Source of the DNA: Centroberyx gerrardi
Taxonomy: Eukaryota; Chordata; Actinopteri; Beryciformes; Berycidae
Direction of reading: 5' to 3'
Length of the DNA: 64,000 bases
NCBI RefSeq assembly: GCF_048128805.1
Contig: NC_135997.1
Coordinates: 17,416,116 to 17,480,115, forward strand
A program made the position numbers and the translations under genes. The notes under the pieces were generated by a model. The model ran no database searches and was not told the DNA's origin. It worked only from the letters and a program-made list of their open reading frames with translations. Shown here piece by piece: positions 25,746 to 51,560 of the stretch (positions within the stretch are counted from its first letter, which is position 1; every line of letters begins with the position of its first letter).

Positions 25746-27664
25746 CCTGAATGTCCACACGATGCCCCAGTGCTGGCTAAATCTATACAACTCGGTGCTA
25801 GATACAGTACAAGTTACTTCCTACAAGGTCCCAACAGCCACTGGTGATCATATGACTGCAACTGCATCTGTGCTCTGTCGTGTCACGTGACCAGTGAGCG
25901 CCTGATTGATCTGTCGACCGACCCAGCACTTTTTTTTTTGCTGGGGACTTTTTAAAAAATTTTTTTTAGAACTGCACAAGAACAGAAGTACAGCGGAATT
26001 CAATTAAAAATGAAAGAAAAAAAAACAAAACGAAAGATACAATCAAAATTTATGGTTTATTATTTTTTCTAATATGAGAAGTTTTCATATTATATTTTAT
26101 ATTGTTTTGTTAGTTTTTACAGTCAATAGGGAGTTACAAATAATACTAAGCCTATTCAGCATGACCGAATATTATGGTTTAGATCCTATAACCCTTGACT
26201 ATATGGAATTTACCAAATAGGCATACAATTTTAGGAGCATTGTCTAATGAAGACAAACCAGCATCACAGTCAACAAACAAGACCATACTTTGTTTGATAT
26301 CAAGAGGTTTGTTAAAAGCAGCACAAACAAGAAATAGGCTATTCAGAATTTTGCAGAAAAAGGACAACTGAAAAATAAATGAGGAATTGCTTCACTTCAC
26401 AGAATGGGCAATATGGTGAGAAATCCGCTTTAAATTTGCCTAGAAATCCACTGCACGGAAGTAGCACCTTCATACGAACTTCCTTCTTTAATGGGTATCA
26501 GAGACTTGAGTTACTTAGCTTTTTACTGAATAAATCAGCAGGTATAGAAAATAACACAATAATACAATAGGCTACACATCAAGAACTAGCCTGTAGGCCT
26601 ATAGGAATCCACAGCACACGTGAAACATCTAAAACAATGAAAACAGACATCGAAATAACATTTTATGAAACCTCTTCTCTAAAAGAGCAAGTTTCATATC
26701 AAAATTCAAGGATTACAATTTATAAGCTAATTTATCTGGTTGAATTTTATTCTGGTGAAAATGGTGATTATCCTTTCAAGCTCTTGGGCTTTTATTTTGA
26801 AGCCGGGAACAAACTTCTACCGGAAAAATACGCGCCTACTAGGTTCATAACAGTGACGCTGTAGATGCTCAGGAGAGTCGGTAAATTGTTGTAAAAAAAT
26901 TACATCTAATTTAATTGTGTGTCAATTTACACGTCAACCAAATCTGTAAACTTGTACCGCATGTGAAAATAGTGACGGGAATCGACAGTCATGTTGGAGT
27001 AGCTCCCCTAAAATATCCTTGGTAGCAACTCTGTGCCGCTTGGTCCCGATAACGATCGAGGTAAAAACAACAACAGTAATTCATCGCATTTTCAAGCCCT
27101 TCGTCGAGATAATGTATACGGTAGTTGTGAGTTGTGTGCATGTATTAGCACGCTTACCAATAGCTAACAGTTTACTTGTAGCTACTCTAAGCGAAACACT
27201 GCTTTTTCTCCTCACAGACTAGCTATTCGATGATACACCAGTGGAAAGCCACACAGAATATGAAATAGGGTTTCCGGTCAAAAAAAAAAAATCAAAATAA
27301 AACGTCGCTGCATTTTGAGTAATACGAAACAGCATAGTGAAATTATGAATCTATAGTAAATAACAACTGAATTGTTTTCTCCAAAATGTCATTTTCACAG
27401 CATACATTCACACCCATATAAGGCTATACAAGAGGTTACAAGTTTTTATTTTGAAGGTAAAATCGGCTGTGTTCCGGTCTTGTTCGGGCTGTGTGTGGCG
27501 GGCTTGACGTAGCCGCTTCAAACCGTCCCCGGCTCTGCTCGTCCAGTCCTAACGGCTCCGCTACCACTGATGGTCCGGGTGATGTTGGCCAGCGACCAGC
27601 CGGTGGCCGAAGCTGCAAAGGGAGGCTGAGATAACACCGTTGTTTCGCTCTTCTCTCCAGCAGC
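25746..27664. other. Divergent ctsa/e2f4 intergenic region
   Basis: The ctsa side holds a perfect CLEAR palindrome about 140 bases upstream of its ATG. From 25930 to 27300 the DNA is AT-rich with no supported gene. The last 250 bases before the e2f4 ATG are GC-richer, consistent with a housekeeping promoter and 5' UTR; no TATA box was seen there. Confidence 0.5.
25882..25891 (-). promoter_or_regulatory. CLEAR element (TFEB/TFE3 site) upstream of ctsa
   Basis: GTCACGTGAC is an exact match to the palindromic CLEAR consensus that drives lysosomal genes. It lies 137-146 bases upstream of the ctsa start codon. Mammalian CTSA is a known member of the CLEAR network, so conservation in fish is plausible. 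Confidence 0.8.
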
Positions 27665-30600
27665 ATGGAGCACGGAGGGAGCCCGGCTGGACTGGAAGCC
27701 GTGCCCGACACCCCGCAGACCCTGACCATGAGACACGAGAGGAGCCTCGGCATGCTCACCACCAAGTTTGTTACCCTACTGCAAGAGGCAAAGGATGGTG
27801 TGGTGGATCTCAAAGAAGTAAGTAGGCCCGGCCAGGCACACAGGACAACGAGCATTGATCCCAAAACTCCCGTAAACATTGTTTTATCAGATGCATTTAA
27901 AAAAAGAAAAAGAAAATACAAATGTATGTTTATTTGTAATGTGGGAAAGAGTGACATTTATTTTGATTATTGATAAAATTTGAACTCCACTGAACAGGTT
28001 GAGTATATAAATAGTTAACAGGTCTGTAATTATTTTCCAAGATGTCCAGTTAGGCCATTCTCCTTATCTTTTGACTCCTTAAGATATATCTTCGTATTGT
28101 GTGAAAACAGGACTAGCATCAATGTCCAGTAGTTTTTATAGGCCATGTTGTGTAAGACCTTACCAATTAGCAATGCTTCTACTTGGGATCAGCCAGCACC
28201 CTATAAACTCTTATCCTCACTGGCCACTATAGATACTGCAACTAAACTAACTAACTAAATCAGGTTGCCAATCTTGTTGTCATTAGAGATGTTATTTAAT
28301 GTTGGTAGTGGCATTTTTGCTTTACTTATTTGACATGGTATTAATGTAGAGGAGTGGATGGAGAGGTTGCACACTCATAGCCTCAATGCAAACAATTTAT
28401 TATAGCCAACATTTTGACAAATGTCAGGTTATTTGCAAATACCCTGAAGAAGACTTTTGTCAAAACGTTGGCTATATTTGTGGCATTGTTTGCATTGAGG
28501 CTATGAGTGTGCGACCTCTCCATCCACTCCTGTACCACCTGCTGTGGTCAGCACCTCCAATACTGGTGTGCGTCCCCTTCTCCTTTATATGGTGTTAATG
28601 TATTCACAATAAAACTTAAAAACATACTAATACACAGGATTTGATCCAGCTGTCTCTTGCTTCATAATTAATAAGTGCTTGTGTAGAAACTTGTCTTTGA
28701 TGCCAAAGAAAAGGGGGATTGAGTGTGGGTCACTCATTGAGGCTATCAATGGGGTGTCTACCACTTGCATCCACTGTACACTGAAAATAATACTGGTGGT
28801 TTGCATTCAAACTGAATACCACCCAATTTAATAATTAATAATTGATATCCACTGTAAGTGACCCTGAATGTTGCAATACCATCGCTGGCTGATCCCTGAT
28901 ACATATTACAGATTATTAGATACTAGATTATTAGATAGATTAGATACTGTTGGAGGAAGTCTGAGAAAATGTGATTTCTGTTAGAATGGGGCTGATTTGC
29001 TGTGGATAAATGGGCTTCCTTCTGTTTTTCCAGGCTGTTGAAGTCCTGGCTGTCAGACAGAAAAGACGCATCTATGACATCACCAATGTATTGGAGGGCA
29101 TTGGTCTGATTGAGAAAACATCCAAAAACAGCGTACAGTGGAAGTAAGTTTCTTTTACCTTTGTGTGGAAGGATATAGGTACGCAAGCGTGTGAGAGTTT
29201 TCGTGCTTAAAATGCATTTGTTAAAACAATATGTTGTGGATGCTTTCTTCTGAATAAGGGGCGTAGGGCCAGGAGGCAACACACAGGAGATCGCCGACAG
29301 GCTGATAGTGTTGAAGTCCGAGCTGGAGGACTTGGAGCGGAAGGAAAGTGTGTTGGACCTGCAGAAAGTTTGGGTCGAACAGAGCATCAAGAACACAACG
29401 GAAGACTCCAAAAACAGCCCATATCCTTCTTATACATGTTGAAGCACAAACACATTGGTTACCTTGATGTATCAGTTTTCTTACATTATTACAGTATGCA
29501 GGGGGATACAGTATACTCAGAGTACTCAAGTGTATTGGGTTGAATCCACTGTATGCTATATCACATTCCTTCTTTAACGTTTTTCTGATTACATTTCTAA
29601 AAATGTGGCCAAGTGAAACAGAAATGCATTCTATTATTGAATTTGTTCCTTTTTTAGTCGCTTCTCATTTTGCTGACATCTCAGGTATTGCAGTTTTAAA
29701 TAAAACCAGAGAATCAGTTAAGGTGCTCATGTGATCCTCTGAAGCATTTTATGAAGCTGAACTAACTACGATATGCTTCAGCAAGTAAAATGGCTAAAAT
29801 CCCCCATGCATCATCACTATAACTCAGCATCTATGTCTAATCAATTTAATGTCTCAGTTTAATGTTATGTGCACATCTTTCATTGATGAGCTTGACAAAC
29901 AGAAGTGATACAATACAATACAATCAGTATCCACTTTATTTGGTACACCTCCCCATTTATGTAAACCTCTCACTCGGTCGGCTCAGTACAACCGTGATGT
30001 GCAGAAGGGCATCTCAGAACAAACAACTTGTCAAACCTTGAAGCGGATCGGCTACAGCAGCAGAAGACCATGTCCGGTTCTACTCCTGTCAGTTCAAAAC
30101 AAGAAGATGAAGCGACAGTGGGCAAATGAACACCAGAAGTGGACAATTGAAGAGTGGAAAAATGTTGCCTGGTCTGACGGGTCTCGGTTTCTGTTGCAAC
30201 ATGCTAATGCAAGGTCAGAATATGGCATAAACTGATTCATCCTGCCTGGTGTCAACGGTACAGCCTGCCGGTGGTGGTATAAATGTGCGGGGAATGTTTT
30301 CTTGGCACATAGTAGGACACCTAGTACCAGCTGAGCATTGTTTAAATACCACAGTCTACCTAAACAATGTTGTTGACCTGGTTCATCCCTTCATGGCTGA
30401 TACATGGCGGATACTACCAGCAGGATAATGTGCCAGGTCACAAAGCACGCATCGTCTCTAGATGGTTCCAGTATACACCTTCATAATAGGTGTCCATAAT
30501 GGAGCACCTTTGGGATGAAGTCGAAGAAGATGTTCACAACATGAATGTGCCACTGAAAAATCTGCAGGAACTGGCGTGACGCTATCAAGTCAACATGGAC

Positions 30601-33600
30601 CAAGATCCCTGTGGTTTGTTTCCTGCACCTTGTTGAATCCAGGACTCGGAGAATTCAGGCTGTTCTGAAGGCAAATGGGGGTTTTACCCACCACTAGCTA
30701 GGTGGAGCCATGGAAGTCTTATATTACTGGGTGGACCCAATTAAGTGGATACTGAGTGTAATTCATTGTTATTATTTTTTTTTTTTTACTGTTTGTTTTG
30801 GAGCAATATTTACCCACTAGGTGGTGATTATCCACACACAATTGCCCCAATTATTTAAAAAAACAAAACAAAACTCTTTACTTACTTGTTAACCATAGCG
30901 GAGCCGTATCAGTCTGCTAAAAATGAGAAGTAGCTTGAACTCAACCCACCACCCAAATGTGACATATTTGTCCACGTAATGCAAGTTTACAGCTATCAAT
31001 TCCAATCTAAACTGTGCATTCATTTCATTTGGGCACTACTGTCAGTTACGGAAGTTAAGAATGAATAATTTATAGCTTCAGTTTGACAAGGTACCAGTCA
31101 ACTGAATAGTTGATGTTTGAAACTGAATGGGACCGGTGAGAACTGGACAGCAGTCCAACCTTGAATTGTATCTCACAACACATTAAATTCACTGAAAAAC
31201 AGCATAGGTGGGTCTGAAGTAGTGGGCAGATAGTGGAGATGACACTTGTATATTCTTTGGAAAAAACAATCACCATCATACTTGCAAGCTTACTCCTTTC
31301 TGAGATAATGATATAATTCTTGAGGTTATTCTTTGATCAAATCAACACCATATTCTAGGTTGAACCTTAACTCAGATCAACTCTTGCCTATGTGAACCAT
31401 GACGATATCTGCAGCTGCTTCAATGGTATTCTATACTCTGTTTCTTCCCTCTCTCTTGTTCTTATTTATGTTTGTTTGTGTCAGCAGCATATCTTTGATA
31501 CAGCTGAAAGTGCTGGAGTGGTAAACCTAATCTGGTTGTTGTTTTGTTTTTATAGAATCGTCATTTGTATTTCACATCAAAAGACGAATTTGAGGCACAA
31601 ATACTGAGTGTTGTCTTTTGATTATGGGTCATCATTGGCCTCAAGCTGTCAGAGCAAAACACACATCTGAGTCCAATTTATTGTCAAATATAAAAGCAGA
31701 ATCCGCTGAATTTTATATTACAGTATGCCCGAGTCAGCTTGTAATTAGTGGGTCCACTGTAGGGATGGCAGAGGATAACAAAGTTTCACTTGGGGGTGGG
31801 GGGGAGTCTGAACAGCAGGAAAGGTTGTTTGGTGCAGGTCAGTAGTTGTAATTCATCTCTTTTCCTGCTCAGGAAGTGAAAATTGGAGAAGCATAGTTCA
31901 GGAAGCACAGCACAGAAAGCTTGCCTCTTCCAGTGCTGCAGTGCCACAGCTCATTTCCCTCTCCTCCGTCTCTGAGCTCACTGGGCTGGAAGACTGTGCC
32001 GCTATTGAGTCGTCTTGATTAATATATCTGCAGGAGAGCTTGAAGAGTTGGGATTAAAAGCCAACAGTATATTCCAACTTTTGAAATGGAATGCACACTG
32101 AATGTACAAAATATTAGGGACACTTGCTCTTTTCATGAAGTGCACTGATGAGCTGAATCCAGGTAAAATCCATTATCCCTTATTGATTTCCCTTATTAAA
32201 TCTATACCAATCACAAAGGAGAATGTAGATGAAGAAAAGCAGAGGAGTTAGAGAAGGAGTTTTAAGCTTTGCGACCATTGAGATGTGGATTGTGCAAAAG
32301 AGGCTGCAACTCAATACCAAGATGTCCCTAATATTTTGTACACCAGTATCAACACAGCTGGACAAAGATATGGTGCACCAATTCATGGTGGCTGTCACAT
32401 TACCACCACTGACACAGTTCTAACATGGTTTAATAGAGGCAAAAAGACCCCTAACAAAATGACATTTTCTTTTGATTTAAAATGCACAAAGACCAAATTA
32501 ACTCATTGCTCAAGGTTTTCACTGTATCTCCTGTCTCTGCAGGTAATACCCTCTTGGCAGTACGCGCACCGTGTGGTACACAGTTAGATGTTCCCATACC
32601 AAAAGCTGTAAGTCCTGCATCATTACAACATAATTTACTTCCTCTTTGCTTACTTTACCTCAAACGGGGTGATTTAGTGCATGCATGCATCTCCCCACAG
32701 GTGCAGAACGGTCAAAGGAAGTATCAGATCCATCTGAAAAGCACCAACGGGCCCATTGACGTTCTGCTTATTAACAAAGACCCTGTAAACTCTGTTCCTG
32801 TGGTGCTGCCGGTCCCACCACCTGAAGAACTTCTACAGAGCGCCAAATCAGCCGCGTCTTCTGCATTGGCAACGGAAGACAGTGCCACACCTAGTCATGC
32901 CTCAGCTGATACCAACCAGACTCCTGACAAACCCAGCACTCAGTCTAGGAAAACAGCCTCAGTGGACTCCCAGTCTCTTCAGTCATCACCGTTTATGAAC
33001 GCTGAGCCTAACAGAACTGATGCGTCTGAATGTGAGTAGCTTTGTTTGTGGAATTAGCTCCTGAAATGGGCTGTTATGGATATGTCACTTAAAGGAACAC
33101 ACTGTTTTTTGTCACAAAGCACCGGTCAAATCAATACTAGAACTGCCAGAAAAATGGCTTGTTAGCATTGCTAGTGCTTCTCATTTAAACTGAGGAGGAG
33201 AAAAATAGCACAAACTTCAAAATATTGAGCAGTTCCTGTTTAAAAGTTAAGTTACAACAGTTACAAGTATTTGATGGAAGGAGATAATCAGTTATATCAT
33301 GCTTTAGCTGGTCGTGCAGTGTCTGTATCTCTCTCTCTGACACACACATGCATACACACACAACTAATCACGTTTTCACATCTCTTGTACTGTGTTTCCC
33401 TTCGGTGCTGAATGTTCTTATAGTGATTTCCTTTTTTTCAGTGCTGGGCTTATCAAAAGGCCTGGCAGACATGCTAGACCCAACCAAAGGTACGAAGCAT
33501 GTTTCATGTTGTGTCTGACATTTATTTTTGTGTTCTTTGAATTCCACTGTGAATTTATTGATTATATATAAATGTATGAATAAGTGTGTTCTCTTTCTCT

Positions 33601-37015: not shown

Positions 37016-37023
37016 TGACGTCA
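37016..37023 (+). promoter_or_regulatory. Palindromic cAMP response element
   Basis: TGACGTCA is the full CRE, embedded in the ten-base palindrome GTGACGTCAC (37015-37024), 26 bases upstream of the TATA box. This is the classic position for CREB/CREM/ATF control. Confidence 0.65.
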
Positions 37024-37041: not shown

Positions 37042-37047
37042 TATAAG
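37042..37047 (+). promoter_or_regulatory. TATA box of the repeat-protein gene
   Basis: TATAAG lies 26 bases after the CRE, placing transcription start near 37072. A non-coding first exon would run to 37139, where gaag/gtaagg is a strong donor. The intron would end at 37304, immediately before the ATG (tttctcttgtctcaat then taaag/ATG). The acceptor is a slightly unusual AAG. Confidence 0.6.
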
Positions 37048-37304
37048 AAGGATGAGTTTTGAGTGTGTTGCTTTCACAACCATTTGCAACACAGCAGGAG
37101 CTTTCTTTTTTCAGTATAGCGGTCAGAAGTTCAACGAAGGTAAGGGAACACTTCTTTAAAACAATAATCTAACAGTCCCGCGACTCAGAATTTTCGTTCC
37201 TGGCAGGAATCGACCTCTGGTCTACCAATTGCGAGAGTGCAGTCAGTGCGTTCAGACTACGGGCTACAAATTATTATTATTTTCTCTTGTCTCAATCGTT
37301 AAAG

Positions 37305-40300
37305 ATGCTGATATTGAGCAAGGACTCAATTCGGAGAGTCCTTAAAGGGACAATCTCACATGCAGATTCCAAAAATAGACGTCAAAATCGAGCCAGATTT
37401 AAAGAAAAGGTGGTTGAGTGTAAACTAGCCAATTTGGTTAAAAGCCTTGAGGTCAGCAATCCATGGATACGCTTCACCGACATCCAGGAAGAGGCCACAG
37501 TGGGTTTACATGAAAACAAGGTAATTCAGAATTTGTCAGATAAGGACATGACATTGGATGATATGCTCAAAGCTGCACATCCTGTCAACACCAGATGGGA
37601 GTTTTGGGACGCTTTCTTCTTTGCTCTACCTTCCCGTACCTCCCAGCCCTCCTGCTCCACCTCTGCCCAGAGTAGCATGAAGGCCATGGTACTGGCGCTT
37701 CGCCAGCACATGCAAGAAACCCAAACTGCAAATGTCGAGGTTCCTTGTGGTCAGGCACGCAAGAGTCTGAGAATGAAGATTGAGCAAGCCCTTCATTCAG
37801 TAGATGTAACTCCACCTGCAAATGCCACAGAGCTGGTCTCAAGTGAAGAGGGTGATTCCATTCTAACTAAGTTGGCAAACACTCTAGTCACTGTTGTTAT
37901 GGAAGGAGCCAAGGCCATGGCAGCAGAGGAATCTAAGTCTGACATGAAAACTGACAGTGCTATTGCTACGGAGGGTGACAAAGGCATTTTGGCACAGGAT
38001 CTCAGTGTGAAATCCCACTGTGCCCTGACTCCAGCTGACCCGACCTCTGAAGGTCCTGCTTCAGCTTTGCAGGCTGCCATTTTTGGGGTTGATAACAACC
38101 TAGCCCCAAAGGTGGAGGGCCCCTCTGCACAATCAAAAAGTGAGCATGAGGCTGCCCAGACTTCTACCTTAAAAAATGATAAGGATAAGATCCCAGATAT
38201 GGACGCAGGCAACCAAAGTGAGTGCCAATCTGCCCTAATTGACTTGGCAAACACTGTAGTCAGTGATGTTATCAAAACAGCCAAGGCAATTGTGGCAGAG
38301 GAAAACAAGTCTAAAATGACGACTCACAGTGCCTTCAACCGACATGGTCAATCCCTGTCTTTAATAGACAGCACAGATCAGGACCTTACTGCAGAGGTTT
38401 CTGATAACCAGCCTTCCATTAAGAGAAGCGAGCTGGGTTCAGACATGGAGGCATCCGTTGGTTTGACCTCTGGATGTACACCTTCTGTGCAGGCTGAGAG
38501 TGCATTTGAGAAAGAAAATGAAGCAGTAGGGCCAGCCACTGAAAACAGCCAAGATGCTATTGTTATGGAGGGTGACAAAGGTATTTTGGCACAGGATCTC
38601 AATGTGAAATCCCACTGTGCCCTGACTCCAGCTGACCCGACCTCTGAAGGTCCTGCTTCAGCTTTGCAGGCTGCCATTTTTGGGGTTGATAACAACCTAG
38701 CCCCAAAGGTGGAGGGCCCCTCTGCACAATCAAAAAGTGAGCATGAGGCTGCCCAGACTTCTACCTTAAAAAATGATAAGGATAAGATCCCAGATATGGA
38801 CGCAGGCAACCAAAGTGAGTGCCAATCTGCCCTAATTGACTTGGCAAACACTGTAGTCAGTGATGTTATCAAAACAGCCAAGGCAATTGTGGCAGAGGAA
38901 AACAAGTCTAAAATGACGACTCACAGTGCCTTCAACCGACATGGTCAATCCCTGTCTTTAATAGACAGCACAGATCAGGACCTTACTGCAGAGGTTTCTG
39001 ATAACCAGCCTTCCATTAAGAAAAGCGAGCTGGGTTCAGACATGGAGGCATCCGTTGGTTTGACCTCTGGATGTACACCTTCTGTGCAGGCTGAGAGTGC
39101 ATTTGAGAAAGAAAATGAAGCAGTAGGGCCAGCCACTGAAAACAGCCAAGATGCTATTGTTATGGAGGGTGACAAAGGTATTTTGGCACAGGATCTCAGT
39201 GTGAAATCCCACTGTGCCCTGACTCCAGCTGACTCGACCTCTGAAGGTCCTGCTTCAGCTTTGCAGGCTGCCATTTTTGGGGTTGATAACAACCTAGCCC
39301 CAAAGGTGGAGGGCCCCTCTGCTCAACCAAAAAGTGAGCATGAGGCTGCCCAGACTTCAACCTTGAAAAATGATAAGGATAAGATCCCAGATATGGACAC
39401 AGGCAACAAAACAGAGTGCGAATCCGCCCCAATTGTCTTAGCAAACAGTGTGGCCGTTGATGACAGTGACAGAGCCAAGGCAATTGTGGCAGAGGAAAAC
39501 AAGTCTAAAATGACGACTCTGATACTGAGCAAGGACTCCATTCGGAGTGTCTTCAGAGGGATAATCTCACTTAAAAATTCCAAAAATAGACGCCAAAATC
39601 AAGCCAAATTTACCAAAAAGTTGGTTGAGCGTAAACTAGCCAATTTGGTTAAACGGCTTGAGGATAGCAATCCATGGATACGCTTCACCGACATCCAGGA
39701 AGAGGCCACAGTGGGTTTACATGAGAACAAGGTAATTCAGATTTTGTCAGATAAGGACGTGACATTGGATGATATGCTCAACGCTGCACATCCTGTCAAC
39801 ACCAGATGGGAGTTCTGGGATGCTTTCTTCTTTACTCTACCTTCCCGTACCTCCCAGCCCTCCTGCTCCACCTCTGCCCAGAGTAGCATGAAGGCCATGG
39901 TACTGACGCTTCGCCAGCGCATGCAAGAAACCCAGACTGCAAATGTTGAGGTTCCTTGTGGTCAGGCACGCAAGAGTCTGAGAATGAAGATCGAGCAAGC
40001 CCTTCATTCAGTAGATGTAACTCCACCTCCTGCAGATGCCACAGAGCTGGTCTCAAGTGAAGAGGGTCCCAGTGGCCTGATTCCACCTGGCAAGAGTGAC
40101 CATGTTTCTCTTCTCAAGTGTGATTCCATTCTAACTAAGTTGGCAAACACTCTAGTCACTGTTGTTATGGAAGGAGCCAAGGCCATGGCAGCAGAGGAAT
40201 CTAAGTCTGACATGAAAACTGACAGTGCTATTGCTACGGAGGGTGACAAAGGCATTTTGGCACAGGATCTCAGTGTGAAATCCCACTGTGCCCTGACTCC

Positions 40301-43300
40301 AGCTGACCCGACCTCTGAAGGTCCTGCTTCAGCTTTGCAGGCTGCCATTTTTGGGGTTGATAACAACCTAGCCCCAAAGGTGGAGGGCCCCTCTGCACAA
40401 TCAAAAAGTGAGCATGAGGCTGCCCAGACTTCTACCTTAAAAAATGATAAGGATAAGATCCCAGATATGGACGCAGGCAACCAAAGTGAGTGCCAATCTG
40501 CCCTAATTGACTTGGCAAACACTGTAGTCAGTGATGTTATCAAAACAGCCAAGGCAATTGTGGCAGAGGAAAACAAGTCTAAAATGACGACTCACAATGC
40601 CTTCAACCAACATGGTCAATCCCTGTCTTTAATAGACAGCACAGATCAGGACCTTATTGCAGAGGTTTCTGATAACCAGCCTTCCATTAAGAGAAGCGAG
40701 CTGGGTTCAGACATGGAGGCATCTGTTGGTTTGACCTCTGGATGTACACCTTCTGTGCAGGCTGAGAGTGCATTTGAGAAAGAAAATGAAGCAGTAGGGC
40801 CAGCCACTGAAAACAGCCAAGATGCTATTGTTATGGAGGGTGACAAAGGTATTTTGGCACAGGATCTCAATGTGAAATCCCACTGTGCCCTGACTCCAGC
40901 TGACCCGACCTCTGAAGGTCCTGCTTCAGCTTTGCAGGCTGCCATTTTTGGGGTTGATAACAACCTAGCCCCAAAGGTGGAGGGCCCCTCTGCACAATCA
41001 AAAAGTGAGCATGAGGCTGCCCAGACTTCTACCTTAAAAAATGATAAGGATAAGATCCCAGATATGGACGCAGGCAACCAAAGTGAGTGCCAATCTGCCC
41101 TAATTGACTTGGCAAACACTGTAGTCAGTGATGTTATCAAAACAGCCAAGGCAATTGTGGCAGAGGAAAACAAGTCTAAAATGACGACTCACAATGCCTT
41201 CAACCAACATGGTCAATCCCTGTCTTTAATAGACAGCACAGATCAGGACCTTATTGCAGAGGTTTCTGATAACCAGCCTTCCATTAAGAGAAGCGAGCTG
41301 GGTTCAGACATGGAGGCATCTGTTGGTTTGACCTCTGGATGTACACCTTCTGTGCAGGCTGAGAGTGCATTTGAGAAAGAAAATGAAGCAGTAGGGCCAG
41401 CCACTGAAAACAGCCAAGATGCTATTGTTATGGAGGGTGACAAAGGTATTTTGGCACAGGATCTCAATGTGAAATCCCACTGTGCCCTGACTCCAGCTGA
41501 CCCGACCTCTGAAGGTCCTGCTTCAGCTTTGCAGGCTGCCATTTTTGGGGTTGATAATAACCTAGCCCCAAAGGTGGAGGGCCCCTCTGCACAATCAAAA
41601 AGTGAGCATGAGGCTGCCCAGACTTCTACCTTAAAAAATGATAAGGATAAGATCCCAGATATGGACGCAGGCAACCAAAGTGAGTGCCAATCTGCCCTAA
41701 TTGACTTGGCAAACACTGTAGTCAGTGATGTTATCAAAACAGCCAAGGCAATTGTGGCAGAGGAAAACAAGTCTAAAATGACGACTCACAATGCCTTCAA
41801 CCAACATGGTCAATCCCTGTCTTTAATAGACAGCACAGATCAGGACCTTATTGCAGAGGTTTCTGATAACCAGCCTTCCATTAAGAGAAGCGAGCTGGGT
41901 TCAGACATGGAGGCATCTGTTGGTTTGACCTCTGGATGTACACCTTCTGTGCAGGCTGAGAGTGCATTTGAGAAAGAAAATGAAGCAGTAGGGCCAGCCA
42001 CTGAAAACAGCCAAGATGCTATTGTTATGGAGGGTGACAAAGGTATTTTGGCACAGGATCTCAATGTGAAATCCCACTGTGCCCTGACTCCAGCTGACCC
42101 GACCTCTGAAGGTCCTGCTTCAGCTTTGCAGGCTGCCATTTTTGGGGTTGATAATAACCTAGCCCCAAAGGTGGAGGGCCCCTCTGCACAATCAAAAAGT
42201 GAGCATGAGGCTGCCCAGACTTCTACCTTAAAAAATGATAAGGATAAGATCCCAGATATGGACGCAGGCAACCAAAGTGAGTGCCAATCTGCCCTAATTG
42301 ACTTGGCAAACACTGTAGTCAGTGATGTTATCAAAACAGCCAAGGCAATTGTGGCAGAGGAAAACAAGTCTAAAATGACGACTCACAGTGCCTTCAACCG
42401 ACATGGTCAATCCCTGTCTTTAATAGACAGCACAGATCAGGACCTTACTGCAGAGGTTTCTGATAACCAGCCTTCCATTAAGAGAAGCGAGCTGGGTTCA
42501 GACATGGAGGCATCCGTTGGTTTGACCTCTGGATGTACACCTTCTGTGCAGGCTGAGAGTGCATTTGAGAAAGAAAATGAAGCAGTAGGGCCAGCCACTG
42601 AAAACAGCCAAGATGCTATTGTTATGGAGGGTGACAAAGGTATTTTGGCACAGGATCTCAATGTGAAATCCCACTGTGCCCTGACTCCAGCTGACCCGAC
42701 CTCTGAAGGTCCTGCTTCAGCTTTGCAGGCTGCCATTTTTGGGGTTGATAACAACCTAGCCCCAAAGGTGGAGGGCCCCTCTGCACAATCAAAAAGTGAG
42801 CATGAGGCTGCCCAGACTTCTACCTTAAAAAATGATAAGGATAAGATCCCAGATATGGACGCAGGCAACCAAAGTGAGTGCCAATCTGCCCTAATTGACT
42901 TGGCAAACACTGTAGTCAGTGATGTTATCAAAACAGCCAAGGCAATTGTGGCAGAGGAAAACAAGTCTAAAATGACGACTCACAGTGCCTTCAACCGACA
43001 TGGTCAATCCCTGTCTTTAATAGACAGCACAGATCAGGACCTTACTGCAGAGGTTTCTGATAACCAGCCTTCCATTAAGAAAAGCGAGCTGGGTTCAGAC
43101 ATGGAGGCATCCGTTGGTTTGACCTCTGGATGTACACCTTCTGTGCAGGCTGAGAGTGCATTTGAGAAAGAAAATGAAGCAGTAGGGCCAGCCACTGAAA
43201 ACAGCCAAGATGCTATTGTTATGGAGGGTGACAAAGGTATTTTGGCACAGGATCTCAGTGTGAAATCCCACTGTGCCCTGACTCCAGCTGACTCGACCTC

Positions 43301-45452
43301 TGAAGGTCCTGCTTCAGCTTTGCAGGCTGCCATTTTTGGGGTTGATAACAACCTAGCCCCAAAGGTGGAGGGCCCCTCTGCTCAACCAAAAAGTGAGCAT
43401 GAGGCTGCCCAGACTTCAACCTTGAAAAATGATAAGGATAAGATCCCAGATATGGACACAGGCAACAAAACAGAGTGCGAATCCGCCCCAATTGTCTTAG
43501 CAAACAGTGTGGCCTTTGATGACAGTGACAGAGCCAAGGCAATTGTGGCAGAGGAAAACAAGTCTAAAATGACGACTCTGATACTGAGCAAGGACTCCAT
43601 TCGGAGAGTCTTCAGAGGGATAATCTCACCTAAAAATTCCAAAAACAGACGCCAATATCAAGCCAAATTTACCAAAAAGTTGGTTGAGCGTAAACTAGCC
43701 AATTTGGTTAAACGGCTTGAGGATAGCAATCCATGGATACACTTCACCGACATCCAGGAAGAGGCCACAGTGGGTTTACATGAGAACAAGGTAATTCAGA
43801 TTTTGTCAGATAAGGACGTGACATTGGATGATATGCTCAACGCTGCACATCCTGTCAACACCAGATGGGAGTTTTGGGACACTTTCTTCTTTATTCTACC
43901 TTCCCATACCTCCCAGCCCTCCTGCTCCACCTCTGCCCAGAGTAGCATGAAGGCCATGGTACTGGCGCTTCGCCAGCACATGCAAGAAACCCAGACTGCA
44001 AATGTTGATGTTGGTCAGGCACGCAAGAGTCTGAGAATGAAGATTGAGCAAGCCCTTGATTCAATAGGTGTAACTCCACCTTCTGCAAATGCCACAGAGC
44101 CGGTCTCAAGTGAAGAGGGTCCCAGTGGCCTGATTCCACCTGGCAAGAGTGACCATGTTTCTCTTCTCAAGTGTGATTCCATTCTAACTAAGTTGGCAAA
44201 CACTCTAGTCACTGTTGTTATGGAAGGAGCCAAGGCCATTGAAACAGATGAAACTAAGTCTGACATAAAAACTGACAGTGCTATTGTTACGGAGGGTGAC
44301 AAAGGCATTTTGGTACAGGATCTCAGTGTGAAATCCCACTGTGCCCTGACTCCAACTGACCTGACCTCTGGATGTCCTGCTTCAGCTTTGCAGGCTGCCA
44401 TTTTTGGGGTTGATAACAACCTGGCCCCAAAGCTGGAGGGCCCCTCTGCACAACCAAAAAGTGAGCATGAGGCTGCCCAGACTTCAACCTTAAAAAATGA
44501 TGGCAAAGGCATTTTGGCACAAAGCCTCAGTGTGAAATCCGACTGTGCCCTGACTCCAGCTGACATGAGCTCAGCAGAGGACAATGGCACAGATAAGGCC
44601 CCAAGCGGAGAGGACGCAAATGATCTGGCTTCTACTGACACAAGTGGCATGGACTTGATGGACATCAACTCGGTTATGGCCTTAGACAACTTGGCCTTAA
44701 ATGATGAAGATACCAGTTTGGACTGCAACGACCTGACTCACACTGACAAAAGTGATGTAGTCCAAACTATGCAAGCCTCCAATGATCTGGCTGCCTCTTG
44801 TGCCAAGATGGATTCAAGAGTGGAGGCAAATCCAGATCTGGTCATGTGTAAATCAGAGGCTGCTCTGTTTGAGGTGACCAACAAAAAAGTCATTGAAGGT
44901 TCAAAACCCTTCACTATAAAGACTCACAAGAATCAGACAATGGGCAAATCAGGACGCAACAAGATCTGCATCATCCTTCACCTGCATCCCCAGGTGAAAC
45001 CCCACTGCTCCCTGACCTCAACCCAGGAACAAAACTCTGCCACAGATCAGGACCCCAGTGCCACAGATCAGGCCCCCAGTGCAGAGGACCACATCTCCAT
45101 TTCAATAATGGAGGCCACTATTGGTCCATCCTCTGGTTCGCTGGCTGTGCAGGCTGAGCGTTCCCTGACTGATTATGATGTTGTTGATGCCCAGGAGGGA
45201 TCAGATGGCTCCCAACTGACATCAAGTGTGTCCAACAGCCCTGACCTGGCACCAAATCCTGAGGGAATCTGTGCCGAAGTAAAAGATTCTGCTACCACTG
45301 TGAAGGCTTCACTCCATCCAGACCCAGTTTCATCGTCAGACAATGGAGAAAAACCAGAGAAGCCAAAGAAGAAAAAAAAGAAGGGAATCAGAAGATTCTT
45401 TCGACGAATCTGGAACTTTCTGTCATGCTCGTCTGGCATCAAAGAGGAGTAG
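37305..45452 (+). CDS. Giant modular repeat protein with AKAP-like helices (2715 residues, unnamed)
   Basis: I do not recognise this as a named gene. One exon, ATG at 37305, stop at 45450-45452. Module A (about residues 1-222, 738-978, 2092-2329) begins LILSKDSIR, is basic then helical, and contains NPW, FTDIQEEATVGLHENKVIQ and NTRWEFWD. Module B is 199 residues, starting GDKGILAQDL; full copies begin at residues 224 and 423 and at 980, 1179, 1378, 1577 and 1776. Truncated copies begin near 622, 1975 and 2331. Each full A and B has an amphipathic helix (LANTLVTVVMEGAKA or LANTVVSDVIKTAKA) resembling PKA-anchoring helices. The rest is Ser/Ala/Asp/Glu/Lys-rich and probably disordered. After residue 2422 the sequence is unique, ending in KKKKKKGIRRFFRRIWNF plus a cysteine. 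No signal peptide or transmembrane segment was seen. An AKAP role is inference. Confidence 0.85.
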   Translation: MLILSKDSIRRVLKGTISHADSKNRRQNRARFKEKVVECKLANLVKSLEVSNPWIRFTDIQEEATVGLHENKVIQNLSDKDMTLDDMLKAAHPVNTRWEFWDAFFFALPSRTSQPSCSTSAQSSMKAMVLALRQHMQETQTANVEVPCGQARKSLRMKIEQALHSVDVTPPANATELVSSEEGDSILTKLANTLVTVVMEGAKAMAAEESKSDMKTDSAIATEGDKGILAQDLSVKSHCALTPADPTSEGPASALQAAIFGVDNNLAPKVEGPSAQSKSEHEAAQTSTLKNDKDKIPDMDAGNQSECQSALIDLANTVVSDVIKTAKAIVAEENKSKMTTHSAFNRHGQSLSLIDSTDQDLTAEVSDNQPSIKRSELGSDMEASVGLTSGCTPSVQAESAFEKENEAVGPATENSQDAIVMEGDKGILAQDLNVKSHCALTPADPTSEGPASALQAAIFGVDNNLAPKVEGPSAQSKSEHEAAQTSTLKNDKDKIPDMDAGNQSECQSALIDLANTVVSDVIKTAKAIVAEENKSKMTTHSAFNRHGQSLSLIDSTDQDLTAEVSDNQPSIKKSELGSDMEASVGLTSGCTPSVQAESAFEKENEAVGPATENSQDAIVMEGDKGILAQDLSVKSHCALTPADSTSEGPASALQAAIFGVDNNLAPKVEGPSAQPKSEHEAAQTSTLKNDKDKIPDMDTGNKTECESAPIVLANSVAVDDSDRAKAIVAEENKSKMTTLILSKDSIRSVFRGIISLKNSKNRRQNQAKFTKKLVERKLANLVKRLEDSNPWIRFTDIQEEATVGLHENKVIQILSDKDVTLDDMLNAAHPVNTRWEFWDAFFFTLPSRTSQPSCSTSAQSSMKAMVLTLRQRMQETQTANVEVPCGQARKSLRMKIEQALHSVDVTPPPADATELVSSEEGPSGLIPPGKSDHVSLLKCDSILTKLANTLVTVVMEGAKAMAAEESKSDMKTDSAIATEGDKGILAQDLSVKSHCALTPADPTSEGPASALQAAIFGVDNNLAPKVEGPSAQSKSEHEAAQTSTLKNDKDKIPDMDAGNQSECQSALIDLANTVVSDVIKTAKAIVAEENKSKMTTHNAFNQHGQSLSLIDSTDQDLIAEVSDNQPSIKRSELGSDMEASVGLTSGCTPSVQAESAFEKENEAVGPATENSQDAIVMEGDKGILAQDLNVKSHCALTPADPTSEGPASALQAAIFGVDNNLAPKVEGPSAQSKSEHEAAQTSTLKNDKDKIPDMDAGNQSECQSALIDLANTVVSDVIKTAKAIVAEENKSKMTTHNAFNQHGQSLSLIDSTDQDLIAEVSDNQPSIKRSELGSDMEASVGLTSGCTPSVQAESAFEKENEAVGPATENSQDAIVMEGDKGILAQDLNVKSHCALTPADPTSEGPASALQAAIFGVDNNLAPKVEGPSAQSKSEHEAAQTSTLKNDKDKIPDMDAGNQSECQSALIDLANTVVSDVIKTAKAIVAEENKSKMTTHNAFNQHGQSLSLIDSTDQDLIAEVSDNQPSIKRSELGSDMEASVGLTSGCTPSVQAESAFEKENEAVGPATENSQDAIVMEGDKGILAQDLNVKSHCALTPADPTSEGPASALQAAIFGVDNNLAPKVEGPSAQSKSEHEAAQTSTLKNDKDKIPDMDAGNQSECQSALIDLANTVVSDVIKTAKAIVAEENKSKMTTHSAFNRHGQSLSLIDSTDQDLTAEVSDNQPSIKRSELGSDMEASVGLTSGCTPSVQAESAFEKENEAVGPATENSQDAIVMEGDKGILAQDLNVKSHCALTPADPTSEGPASALQAAIFGVDNNLAPKVEGPSAQSKSEHEAAQTSTLKNDKDKIPDMDAGNQSECQSALIDLANTVVSDVIKTAKAIVAEENKSKMTTHSAFNRHGQSLSLIDSTDQDLTAEVSDNQPSIKKSELGSDMEASVGLTSGCTPSVQAESAFEKENEAVGPATENSQDAIVMEGDKGILAQDLSVKSHCALTPADSTSEGPASALQAAIFGVDNNLAPKVEGPSAQPKSEHEAAQTSTLKNDKDKIPDMDTGNKTECESAPIVLANSVAFDDSDRAKAIVAEENKSKMTTLILSKDSIRRVFRGIISPKNSKNRRQYQAKFTKKLVERKLANLVKRLEDSNPWIHFTDIQEEATVGLHENKVIQILSDKDVTLDDMLNAAHPVNTRWEFWDTFFFILPSHTSQPSCSTSAQSSMKAMVLALRQHMQETQTANVDVGQARKSLRMKIEQALDSIGVTPPSANATEPVSSEEGPSGLIPPGKSDHVSLLKCDSILTKLANTLVTVVMEGAKAIETDETKSDIKTDSAIVTEGDKGILVQDLSVKSHCALTPTDLTSGCPASALQAAIFGVDNNLAPKLEGPSAQPKSEHEAAQTSTLKNDGKGILAQSLSVKSDCALTPADMSSAEDNGTDKAPSGEDANDLASTDTSGMDLMDINSVMALDNLALNDEDTSLDCNDLTHTDKSDVVQTMQASNDLAASCAKMDSRVEANPDLVMCKSEAALFEVTNKKVIEGSKPFTIKTHKNQTMGKSGRNKICIILHLHPQVKPHCSLTSTQEQNSATDQDPSATDQAPSAEDHISISIMEATIGPSSGSLAVQAERSLTDYDVVDAQEGSDGSQLTSSVSNSPDLAPNPEGICAEVKDSATTVKASLHPDPVSSSDNGEKPEKPKKKKKKGIRRFFRRIWNFLSCSSGIKEE
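37974..39518 (+). repeat. First B-module array: two full 597-bp units plus a 351-bp partial
   Basis: Unit starts are 37974, 38571 and 39168. Units are nearly identical at nucleotide level, differing at a few sites such as AGT/AAT in the VKSH block and AGA/AAA before SEL. The partial unit ends in a diverged block (KTECESAPIVLANSVA) that joins directly to module A2 at 39519. Confidence 0.97.
40242..43577 (+). repeat. Second B-module array: five full 597-bp units plus a 351-bp partial
   Basis: Unit starts are 40242, 40839, 41436, 42033, 42630 and 43227. The first three units carry variant residues (HNAFNQHG, LIAEV) not seen in the others. The terminal partial is almost identical to the one ending the first array and joins module A3 at 43578. 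Confidence 0.97.
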
Positions 45453-47487: not shown

Positions 47488-49436
47488 TAAAATATAGTTA
47501 AAAAGAGCATCGATTGGCTCTGTGTCATCAGGAGACATGGCAATATAGAGTTTTGTGTCATCAGCATAGCTGTTAAAATGTATGCTGTGCTTCCTGATGA
47601 CGCTCCCAAGCGGAAGCATGTAAAGATTAAAAAGTAAAGGACCTAAAATTGAACCTTGAGGGACACCGCATGTCATTTTGTACCTCTTAGATGAGTGTTC
47701 ATTAACAGTTAGAAGAAATTCTCTGTCGGTGAGGTAACATCTAAACCAGTTAAAAACAGTACCAGAGGCCAACCAAGCTGCAAAGTCTTTCTAAAAGAAT
47801 TGAGTGATCGACTGTGTCAAAGGCTGCGCTTAAATCAAGAAGAACTAATACAGGTCGTTTACGACCTTGACTAGGGCCATCTCAGTACTATGGTTGGCCC
47901 GAAAGCCAGATTGGTATTTTTCAAGAATGTTATGTGAATTCATGAAATCATTTAGCTGACTAAAAACAAGTTTCTCTAAAATTTTACTTGAAAATGGAAG
48001 ATTGGATACTGGTCTATAACTGTTGAGAGCCAAAGTGTCTAAATTACTTTGCTTCAGAAGGGGTTTGACTATAGAGGTTTTAAGAGCGGTGGGGAAAACA
48101 CCCATCTGAAGAGAGTAGTTCACAATATTAAGTAATTCCTCATCCATAGAACTAAAAACTGATTTTAAAAAGGATGTAGGAATTGGATCTAAAGAGCAGA
48201 TTGACAGTTTCAGTTGGGATACAACTTTAGCCAGCATCTCAGCATCAACCAGGACAAATGCCTCCAGTGTTTCCTTATATAAAATCAATGGCTCTGGGGC
48301 ATTAAAATTTACAGTGTTGTCTTGGCATAAACCTGATCTAGTGGTGTCTATTTTATCTCTGAAGTGCAAGTGAGCTGCAAACTCTTCACATTTTGATGTG
48401 GAGGATAAATCTCTAGGCATAGTAAAAACAGGGTTAATTAAACGATCAATAGTGGAAAAGAGCACTTTTGGATTATTGCGGTTGTCGGTTATCAGTTTAG
48501 AGAAATGTGATTGTCTTGAATTCTTAATTGCCTTATTATAAATAATCAGCTGCTCACTGAGAATTTGAATGTGGACAAGTAACTTAGTTTTTCTCCACCT
48601 CCTTTCAGCTACTCGACAGTTTCTCTTTAATTGTTTAATTTCCTCATTTTTCCAGGGAGGTTTCTGGTTGATGGGTATCTTTTTTTAGTTTAAGTGGGGC
48701 CACTGTATCCAGGGCAGTCCTTAGATTATTGTTAAAACTATTGACCATAAAATCACAAGAGGAGGGTAAAAAGTTTGCAGGAGTGTCACGTAAGTGTTCA
48801 ATAAAATTTGCAGCCACTTCAGCGGTAAGATAGCGTTTCTTCACAGTGCGCTCAGGAATATCTCGCTATACATGGCTATTGACAGTAAAAAAGTCACATA
48901 AGTGATCAGAGATGCCTACATCAACAATTGAGGAAATATTGGCAGTGAGACCATATGTTATTACAAGGTCTAGGGTATGGCCTTTGCTATGGGTTGGTTC
49001 AATAACATGCTGGGTGAAGTTCATACAGTTCAGCAGGTTTAAAAAATTCCATTGCTAGAGAGTCTGATTGTCATAGTGTGGATAATTGACAGTATTTCTG
49101 AGAAATCAGTGATAAAAGACGAGCATCGTTTGGGTGGCCTGTAAACTGTCATACACAGTGTAGGGTGCAGACTGTTAAAAATGAAAGAATGATATTCAAA
49201 AGATGTGTATTCCTCAAATGTAATGTCTTTAAAACCAAGCATGTCTGAGAAGTTGGCTGCTGTACCCCCACCTCTCTTACCTCTTCTAAAAGAGTGTGAG
49301 AAACTAAAATTAGGCGGTGAGGCTTCAATAAGGGCAGCTGATCCATCAGTATTGAGCCATGTTTCAGTTAAAAACATACAGTCAAAGTTGTCCGAAATCA
49401 GATCGTTTATAAGGAATGTTTTATTAGAGAGTAGGG

Positions 49437-51560
49437 ATGTCGGTTTCGGTCAATTTTGCTTTCGATAGGCCGACACCCATTAACCGGTTAATTTTTAAGA
49501 AAAAATGCTTAATGACGTGAAATACAAGAAAGTGGCGCTTTCCTTTTAGTCCGGCGCTCCATTGACTCAATAAGCTTTGGCTCCGCATTTTGAAGCGCTG
49601 TCCATTTAGAGGGGCTGAAATTGTAATGTTTTGTGTTGTAAATGTCTTGCCTTTATTTTATTTTCTGTTGGCTTTGCCAGTTTATTGCTGCATTTTGATC
49701 AGGTCATCGTTGCAAAAGAGAATGTGTTGTCAATGATTCCACCTGATAAAATAAAGGTCAATAAATAAATAATAAATTAACTATAGAATTGTCATTTCGT
49801 TAATTAATATGCAAAAAATGAACCTAGGCCTACAAATTACAAAATTTTGGAACTGCATAGTGGTCAAATTACTGGTGCTCCGGCACTTCTAGTGTTAATG
49901 CGGACAAGGAATCGATTTTTAAGAGCTTTATTAAAAGTACAACTGCACTTAATCTAAACAACAAAACAACATATTATTTAGCATTTCGATTTGGCAATTG
50001 GCACATTACTTTGCAGCATATATGAAAACACTTTTGAATTATCCAATAATTAATGTGGACAAGGAACGGATTTTTAAGAGCTTTAAATAAAGTCGGCTAC
50101 AACTGCATTTAATCTTAACAACAAAACAACATTTCGTTTCGAACTAATGGTTTTTGTTGAGGAAGATCAACATATCGTGCAAATGTCTTTTTTCTCCTAA
50201 TAATTTTTATAATACTTTCAATAGCATATTGATAACAATAGGCTAATGTAATATTCGCCTACAATATATAAAGGCAAATTTTAATATAATAGGATAGCTT
50301 ACAATAAATTAATAGGCTACCTGCATGCGTTTTCTAAGGGACTCCCGAACTTTAGCCTTGAACTCTGACACCGTCCTGCTGTCATCCTCTGCGCGGAGGA
50401 AGGGTTTCTCCAGGAGGCTGAAGGTGATGGGGTAGGTGTTGGAGATGGAGACGTCCTATTCGGCCGACATCATAGTGGTAGCACGCTTCAGAGTTGCCAA
50501 GACAGGCAAGATCTTCGTCACTAGTCATCCTGGAGCTCGAGGGTCCTGGCATCTTGGAGTTTTGTGACGGTCCGGTCAGACAGAACGGCTGTGACTGCCC
50601 ATCTTTGCTCCACCAACCTCTCAAACATGTCACAGACAGAGTTCCATTGTGTGTTTGTAGATCAGGACTGGATGAGGGTGTGCTGTGGCAGCTGCATCTG
50701 TGCCTGCTTCGCTTTCAGTGCCACGGTGGTGGGATGGCTGTGGCTAAAGTGCTTCACCAGCCTCCCAGCAGCAACGTTCACGCGACACACGTAAACGTTG
50801 AAGCCGTCGTTGATGGCGAGTTGGAGTGTGTGCGCATAACACGGAACAGAGACCCAGGGGACGCGTGCGGGGGAGTTAGCTGCCACAATGTTTTTGGCGT
50901 TATCGCGGACGCAGGCCAACATACGGCCGTTAAGGCCCCATGTCTCCACCGCACTAGTCAGCTTCTCTGCGAGGTTGTCTGACGTGTGCTGGACGGAGAG
51001 GCTCTGAGTGAGTAGCACACTGGACTGTATCTCCCAGTCAGCATTGACGAAGTGACACGTTGTTGTGATGTAGCTTTCGTTTGTGAGAGCTGTCCAGCAG
51101 TCGGTGGTCAGAGCTAGCTTGTCTGCTCTGGCTAGCTTGACTTTTAGCTCATCCTTCTTCTCCTCAAAGTGTTTTTCAATGTGTTTAGTCACAGTAGCTC
51201 TCGATGGCATAACGTACTCGGGCTCGAGGTACCGAACTAGCTCTTTAAATCCCTCGCCCTCTACCACACTGATTGGCAGCATATCGGTCTCAATCATTCG
51301 GCACACCAACTGGGTGATGGCCTCGGACGGGCGCGCATCACACTTTCTCCCCCCGGCTAGCAGCGACATGATCTTTGGCTGTGTCTGCGAGCCATCCTCG
51401 GACATGGCAGCTGGGTGCTTGTTCTTAATGTGGTACAGCATAGTGCTAGTACTACTACTAAACTGAAGAGTAGCATCACACAATTTACATTTGACTTTGT
51501 TGCCTTTCTGGAGGAAATGGTCCCACACCAAGCTTCGTTTAGCGCGCTTAATTTTTTACC
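49437..51560 (-). pseudogene. hAT transposase (ZBED1-like), broken
   Basis: On the minus strand, 51531-50662 is open for 289 codons. It has a BED-type zinc finger (VKCKLCDATLQF, then YHIKNKHP), a dimerisation part, and the start of the RNase-H-like catalytic domain (LALTTDCWTALTNESYITTT; CVRDNAKNIV; CYAHTLQLAI). The frame is then shifted and continues to about 50340, where stops accumulate. The left terminus TAGGGATGTCGGTTTCGG at 49437 interrupts LINE endonuclease sequence. No matching right terminus or target duplication was found. Confidence 0.8.

Follow-up and report, generated by a model that had tools for sequence, protein, structure and literature searches.

The question raised by this locus is whether a very long reading frame of Centroberyx gerrardi, which the sequence-only reading had taken for a possible polyvalent PKA-anchoring scaffold, carries helices that could dock PKA in the manner of AKAP helices. 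In the window (the whole stretch of 64,000 nucleotides that was analyzed), the plus strand is free of stop codons from 37173 to 45452 (2,759 codons), the first in-frame ATG lies at 37305, and the stop codon of the resulting 2,715-residue frame occupies 45450 to 45452. The protein is rich in S, A, D, K, L, and E, and the residue numbering used in its analysis begins one codon ahead of the ATG. Its modules follow the order head 1, A helix, B, B, B-prime; head 2, A helix, five B, B-prime; head 3, A helix, tail. The features are given below, all on the plus strand; bits are ungapped AKAP-profile scores in the best register.

37016..37023, plus strand: TGACGTCA, putative full CRE-type palindrome, the sole such site in the 64 kb
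37140..37304, plus strand: proposed intron of 165 bases separating a non-coding first exon from the ATG (GAAG/GTAAGG ... TTAAAG/ATG), read from the sequence
37305..45452, plus strand: coding exon, 2,715 residues, stop included; an open frame with long-framed relatives across the genome
37308..37631, plus strand: head domain copy 1, about 108 residues, the family head, from a profile search
37872..37916, plus strand: A helix 1, LANTLVTVVMEGAKA, 13.4 bits
38244..38288, plus strand: B helix 1, LANTVVSDVIKTAKA, 19.1 bits
38841..38885, plus strand: B helix 2, 19.1 bits
39438..39482, plus strand: B-prime module with the spacing lost, LANSVAVDDSDRAKA, best score -3.5 bits
39519..39842, plus strand: head domain copy 2, from a profile search
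40140..40184, plus strand: A helix 2, 13.4 bits
40512..40556, plus strand: B helix 3, 19.1 bits
41109..41153, plus strand: B helix 4, 19.1 bits
41706..41750, plus strand: B helix 5, 19.1 bits
42303..42347, plus strand: B helix 6, 19.1 bits
42900..42944, plus strand: B helix 7, 19.1 bits
43497..43541, plus strand: B-prime module with the spacing lost, LANSVAFDDSDRAKA, best score -3.2 bits
43578..43901, plus strand: head domain copy 3, from a profile search
44193..44237, plus strand: A helix 3, 13.0 bits
45360..45449, plus strand: C-terminal tail, polybasic, aromatic, and Cys-containing, KPKKKKKKGIRRFFRRIWNFLSCSSGIKEE, common to family members

Upstream of the gene, the CRE-type site is accompanied by a TATA-like TATAAG at 37042, 26 bases downstream of the first base of the palindrome (37016). 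A CRE palindrome and a TATA box ahead of the first exon make up the layout of cAMP-inducible promoters. In 28 relatives, the first exons of which may be more distant, no CRE-type site was found in the stretch of up to 700 bases ahead of the head; as the promoter has no match upstream of the paralogues, we do not take it to mark a cAMP-driven or testis gene. Elsewhere in the window, the minus strand holds probable transposon remains at 47845 to 48684 and 50662 to 51555, a fragment of a reverse transcriptase that stays below the Pfam cut-off and a BED zinc-finger frame that passes it. The plus strand has an open frame of 427 codons at 61003 to 62286, in which Pfam gave nothing over its cut-off and which may be a large exon belonging to a cellular gene.

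The ten AKAP-like helices proposed from the sequence are indeed present, three of the A form and seven of the B form, each start quoted there lying 15 bases before the start of the helix itself. Both forms carry paired hydrophobic residues over five helical turns, AL..LA..VV..VI..A in B and IL..LA..LV..VM..A in A, and both the gapless register with D-AKAP2 and an equivalent one with AKAP-IS could be reproduced. All ten places had been listed correctly, but the two degenerate B-type modules at 39438 and 43497 had been passed over; these B-prime modules both fit LANSVA[VF]DDSDRAKA, and the AKAP-like hydrophobic spacing that the A and B helices keep is gone from them. A distance of about 200 residues between neighboring helices is right for most of the ten, the B unit having a period of 597 bases. 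When A is compared with B, the six anchors (A2, L/V5, V6, V9, M/I10, and A13) are all hydrophobic, being identical at four positions and hydrophobic in both forms at the other two; changes fall at positions 7, 8, 11, and 12, and three of the other seven core positions are identical. This retention of anchor hydrophobicity is suggestive, over too few positions for a test.

Scores were obtained with a profile of 12 anchoring helices, part of which were checked against printed sequences: three agree with peptides in PMC4526808, one agrees with a printed PDB chain, one differs from its chain by a residue, and four were matched in PDB by name or without letters shown. Against PDB, the matches at E <= 0.002 represent eight distinct AKAP sequences and the first other protein follows at E 0.18, a result that tests the profile itself more than its power, several of the matched helices having been in the profile. 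Known AKAP helices score 8.7 to 33.8 bits (leave-one-out, fixed register), and the hydrophobic spacing of anchoring helices is found in 10 of the 12 window modules, at 13.0 to 19.1 bits; when the profile is run along the entire protein, the ten A and B helices, and no other site, exceed 5 bits. As a control, 109,975 positions of other six-frame ORFs (from the window and the fetched loci, antisense included) were scored; three reach 8.7 bits, with a maximum of 10.9. None of 400,000 permutations of the same 19 residues scores as high as B and three of 400,000 score as high as A, and among permutations that roughly match the real helix in amphipathicity the counts are 0 of 1,570 and 0 of 118. The likeness of the helices to AKAP helices is a direct observation, as are the repeats.

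The profile scan that had been proposed as a check recovers the ten sites in this ungapped form, but with calibrated whole-protein HMMER its outcome is weak: B reaches 4.4 bits (E about 490 per 177,635 sequences), an AKAP match not significant by itself, and A reaches -0.4 to -1.3 bits (E 17,000 to 33,000 per 177,635 sequences). About 0.3% of unrelated sequences match the AKAP profile as well as B does in this search. The weak score is in part due to the length of the protein; with all peptides in the same 53-residue frame, HMMER gives 11.6 for B and 7.0 for A, compared with 2.6 to 23.0 for left-out known helices and -3.8 to 2.7 for eight other family peptides (B-prime, six paralogue variants, and the contig-21 type). 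The profile is unable to certify the weakest real AKAPs either. The loose AKAP pattern of the literature was rejected as a sole test, shuffled versions of the third A module plus tail (625 residues) holding a mean of 0.85 matches (strict) or 1.3 matches (with Met). Nor do the non-repeated parts show an excess of it: for the third A module plus tail, p is 0.54 (strict) and 0.37 (with Met), and for one B module it is 0.06 and 0.11. The hydrophobic moment of B points to 129 degrees, among the five known helices tested (114 to 151 degrees), and that of A to 93 degrees, nearer the paralogues (69 to 91 degrees). An AlphaFold model of the three A modules has a helix at residues 191 to 228 that includes the A helix; its mean pLDDT of 37.6 is too poor for a fold search, and the model supports neither side.

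The window gene belongs to a large family. In its own genome (778.9 Mb) there are 84 matches to the third A module, ten of them within the window gene, and 57 matches to the helix-to-tail region of a paralogue; by hand count, the family occupies about 50 separate places on 16 contigs, some of them broken, with single-exon frames of up to 2,174 residues. Several of the places are clustered on contigs 5, 14, 17, 21, and 23, and near-identical copies are dispersed over contigs 5, 7, 11, 17, 18, and 21. We read 33 places (one of them on contig 21, via L003/L004); the head is common to most, and a single helix, a basic tail, and TTQAS-like hexapeptide repeats are also found in most. The C-terminal tail, which had been proposed to tether the protein, is a real family feature and basic, and it may act as such a tether. 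In the relatives L040 to L059 and L068 to L070, the head exon nearly always follows a CAG acceptor and opens with ACG, GTG, ATG, or a similar codon. Because the head follows the acceptor and mostly starts with ACG or GTG, most relatives require an upstream coding exon, which was not found within about 1.5 kb of the head. In a tree of 31 heads, those of the window lie on a long branch amid the contig-12 and contig-21 heads, with a weakly supported nearest neighbor.

Searches outside the genome gave little. No homologue from another species was found in one protein collection (about 8,000 candidates scored per query); the third A module plus tail had no match there, and the four matches of paralogue L040 (E 9e-11 to 1e-5, 13 to 22% coverage) were taken as low complexity. 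The 14 Pfam matches of the whole window protein all fall under the curated cut-offs and were taken as chance. Four family members gave nothing over the Pfam cut-off apart from a hexapeptide-repeat match, namely, Cementoin in L040 (35 bits, cut-off 27; weaker in L004), likewise taken as low complexity. A PDB sequence search with the window protein and each helix returned nothing credible, Rfam had no match at its gathering score, and a matching expansion sought in one anchovy genome paper was not found in its available text (PMC13403563). A family at about 50 places in which the four members checked have no accepted Pfam domain merits a name.

How far do the relatives share the helix of the window gene? 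At 25 of the 33 places the helix is of a short type (e.g., ELANKLRAATERAEA or ELANKLRAVIERAES). The long type occurs at three places, L039, L066, and L065, the last of them broken, with LANTALSVV ahead of a deletion. At three others (L003/L004, L060, and L067) the site is missing or broken, and the only helix, beside it, is of a different, contig-21 type (in L067, downstream of the shared helix site); two (L061 and L064) have no intact helix by pattern search. A DNA alignment of 11 sequences places the difference inside the helix, adjoining LAN-T, where the short type has one codon fewer, so that its two helix halves are rotated against each other relative to the window helix. Read in the plain register, the short type is charged at position 10 in 25 of 25 cases (E, once R), has R at position 6 in 24 of 25 (once G), and has E or K at position 13 in nearly all; charged residues, mostly R, E, and E, thereby take the place of V, I/M, and A. 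If the register is instead fitted to the second half, hydrophobic residues prevail at positions 2, 6, 9, 10, and 13, and position 5 holds K or T.

The AKAP-profile scores of the main variants are -6.6 to -1.7 for the short types, 5.1 and 4.0 for the contig-12 members, and -1.2 and 0.0 for the contig-21 type. In a scan of 33 other family frames (a set that leaves out L065, L066, and one of the two L059 frames, the second, and in which L003 and L004 overlap), no site reaches 8.7 bits, and the best, at 7.6 bits, lies outside the helix; scores of 4 to 7 bits are therefore family background, and the contig-12 helices cannot be called AKAP-like. The repeated contig-21 helix INELVKAAVALV (L004/L003) fits the loose pattern and was rejected as an AKAP helix at -1.2 bits. 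The broken relative L065 (contig 23, 19.77 Mb) is about 70% identical to the B module and carries LANTALSVV followed by a 5-base alignment gap; the long helix type may therefore predate the window gene. Both the family and the absence of the AKAP match from most relatives read were seen directly. Homologues in other fish that keep the modules and lose the spacing had been named as the finding that would refute anchoring; very nearly this was found, in paralogues (the 25 short-type places) rather than in orthologues. Because the face is not conserved among homologues, as judged on paralogues, and binding is only predicted, we do not file the gene as an AKAP. For this one gene the AKAP reading has partial support, which the paralogues reduce; they lower the statement that it is an AKAP more than the statement that it may work like one.

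The five-turn paired-hydrophobic face makes the docking of dimerization/docking (D/D) domains the most likely single role, and we tentatively read the A and B helices as candidate docking sites for the D/D domains of PKA regulatory subunits or their ropporin-type relatives, at somewhat less than an even chance. Ropporin-kind proteins carry D/D domains, and a partner other than PKA (of the ropporin or DPY-30 type) should be regarded as equally open. The same genome has eight exon matches to the RIIa-type D/D domain (PF02197); therefore, D/D partners exist, as in any vertebrate. A serious possibility, also short of an even chance, is that the helix is the ordinary interaction helix of the family, serving self-association or another partner, and that in this one member a length difference of one codon, by turning half of the helix, gave it an AKAP-like spacing by chance. 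The helix site is common to most family places read, where its prevailing short form (such as ELANKLRA[AV][IT]ERAE) consists of three to four heptads with conserved charges, and the DNA alignment does reduce the difference to a single codon; the weak whole-protein match points the same way, as does the short-type helix of L062, which in the short HMMER frame scores 2.7, level with the weakest known AKAP (2.6). Against it, the AKAP face is kept in 10 of the 12 modules of the window protein, anchor hydrophobicity is intact between A and B, which differ at four of seven non-anchor core positions, and the scores are as high as those of real AKAPs.

The seven B units differ by 0 to 8 of 597 bases: copies 1 and 6 are one base apart, and copies 2 and 7 as well as 3 and 4 are identical throughout. 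The near-identity of pairs 1/6 and 2/7 is such as block duplication by unequal exchange would leave. Heads 2 and 3 differ at 10 of 354 bases and head 1 differs from both at 30 to 33; over 421 head pairs the median dN/dS is 0.58, and among the 86 pairs that include a window head, the 15 printed range from 0.64 to 1.25. Over the 36 helix-region codons of A and B, dN is 0.34 and dS is 0.36; therefore, no purifying selection is visible in the helix region. A copies 1 and 3 differ outside the core only. The ten helices are thus not independent, because two homologous helix versions were multiplied by duplication; the valency of ten is real in the sequence as assembled and mostly of recent duplication.

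Another reading is that recombination has filled a disordered, fast-evolving protein with mostly neutral modules, the helix copies being kept by their youth alone. The small divergence of the B units, the median head dN/dS, the loss of the helix from two modules, and the broken state of some relatives all agree with it; nevertheless, we consider it improbable, since 2,715 codons run without a stop here and frames reach 2,174 residues elsewhere, and the helix is among the best-conserved columns in an alignment of 12 short-type relatives. It is very improbable that the count of ten owes something to misassembly of the near-identical 597-base repeats. The identical B copies (2 with 7, 3 with 4) could speak for this; against it stand the three different block lengths around heads 1 to 3, the 10 to 33 of 354 bases that separate the heads, and a frame intact throughout.

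Under the D/D-docking reading, the gene belongs, as a fast-evolving member, to a large family whose plan runs from a head domain through a flexible linker and a single amphipathic helix to a basic tail at the C-terminus. In this gene, unequal recombination probably multiplied the head-helix block first and the helix-linker (B) module later, giving ten near-identical helices. The AKAP-type five-turn face is present in the window gene and possibly also in the broken contig-23 relative. We infer that the helices form and bind D/D dimers at many places of one membrane- or filament-tethered chain; a chain of about 2,700 residues tethered by KKKKKKGIRRFFRRIWNFLSC would gather several dimeric regulators there, whichever D/D partner it selects. 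The full scenario, a polyvalent PKA or ropporin-type scaffold of ten D/D-docking helices on one tethered fish protein, born in a young expanding family through a helix-phase change and then runaway module duplication, its valency evolving by unequal recombination, is considerably less probable than its docking step and, as a whole, unlikely.

The A and B helices of the window gene are a plausible and testable PKA-anchoring candidate, and that interpretation is partly supported. The sequences and KDs of D-AKAP2, AKAP-IS, Ht31/AKAP-Lbc, and RIAD are given in Table 1 of PMC4526808. The window helices share with such AKAP helices their length, register, and paired hydrophobics over five turns; B has the same VSDV and terminal Ala as D-AKAP2 and the same A, N, I, K, and A positions as RIAD. 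The differences are that the window protein, as predicted from its sequence, has ten near-identical copies in one chain and that most paralogues read are without the face. According to PMC12203939, the fungal form of OPA1 has a glutamate in the face, a change like that of the short type, and does not anchor PKA; the same source states that PKA R subunits need five helical turns and has classes, RIID2/RID2, that cover ropporin-kind D/D proteins. In DDIPs as well, amphipathic helices bind D/D domains of the PKA-like kind, chiefly in cilia and flagella; for DPY-30-type partners, four turns are described as the requirement, whereas the window helix has five. Should the helices fail to bind, the gene is an example of AKAP-like motifs that mislead; if they do bind, paralogues with and without the extra codon would be a natural experiment in the gain or loss of kinase anchoring, and the protein would be the highest-valency anchoring scaffold found in our literature search (subscription literature being mostly outside it), with BIG2 next. 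BIG2 has three predicted AKAP sequences (PMC2909266); compared by description, both proteins hold several candidate AKAP helices, three predicted sites in BIG2 and ten repeats of two forms in the window protein.
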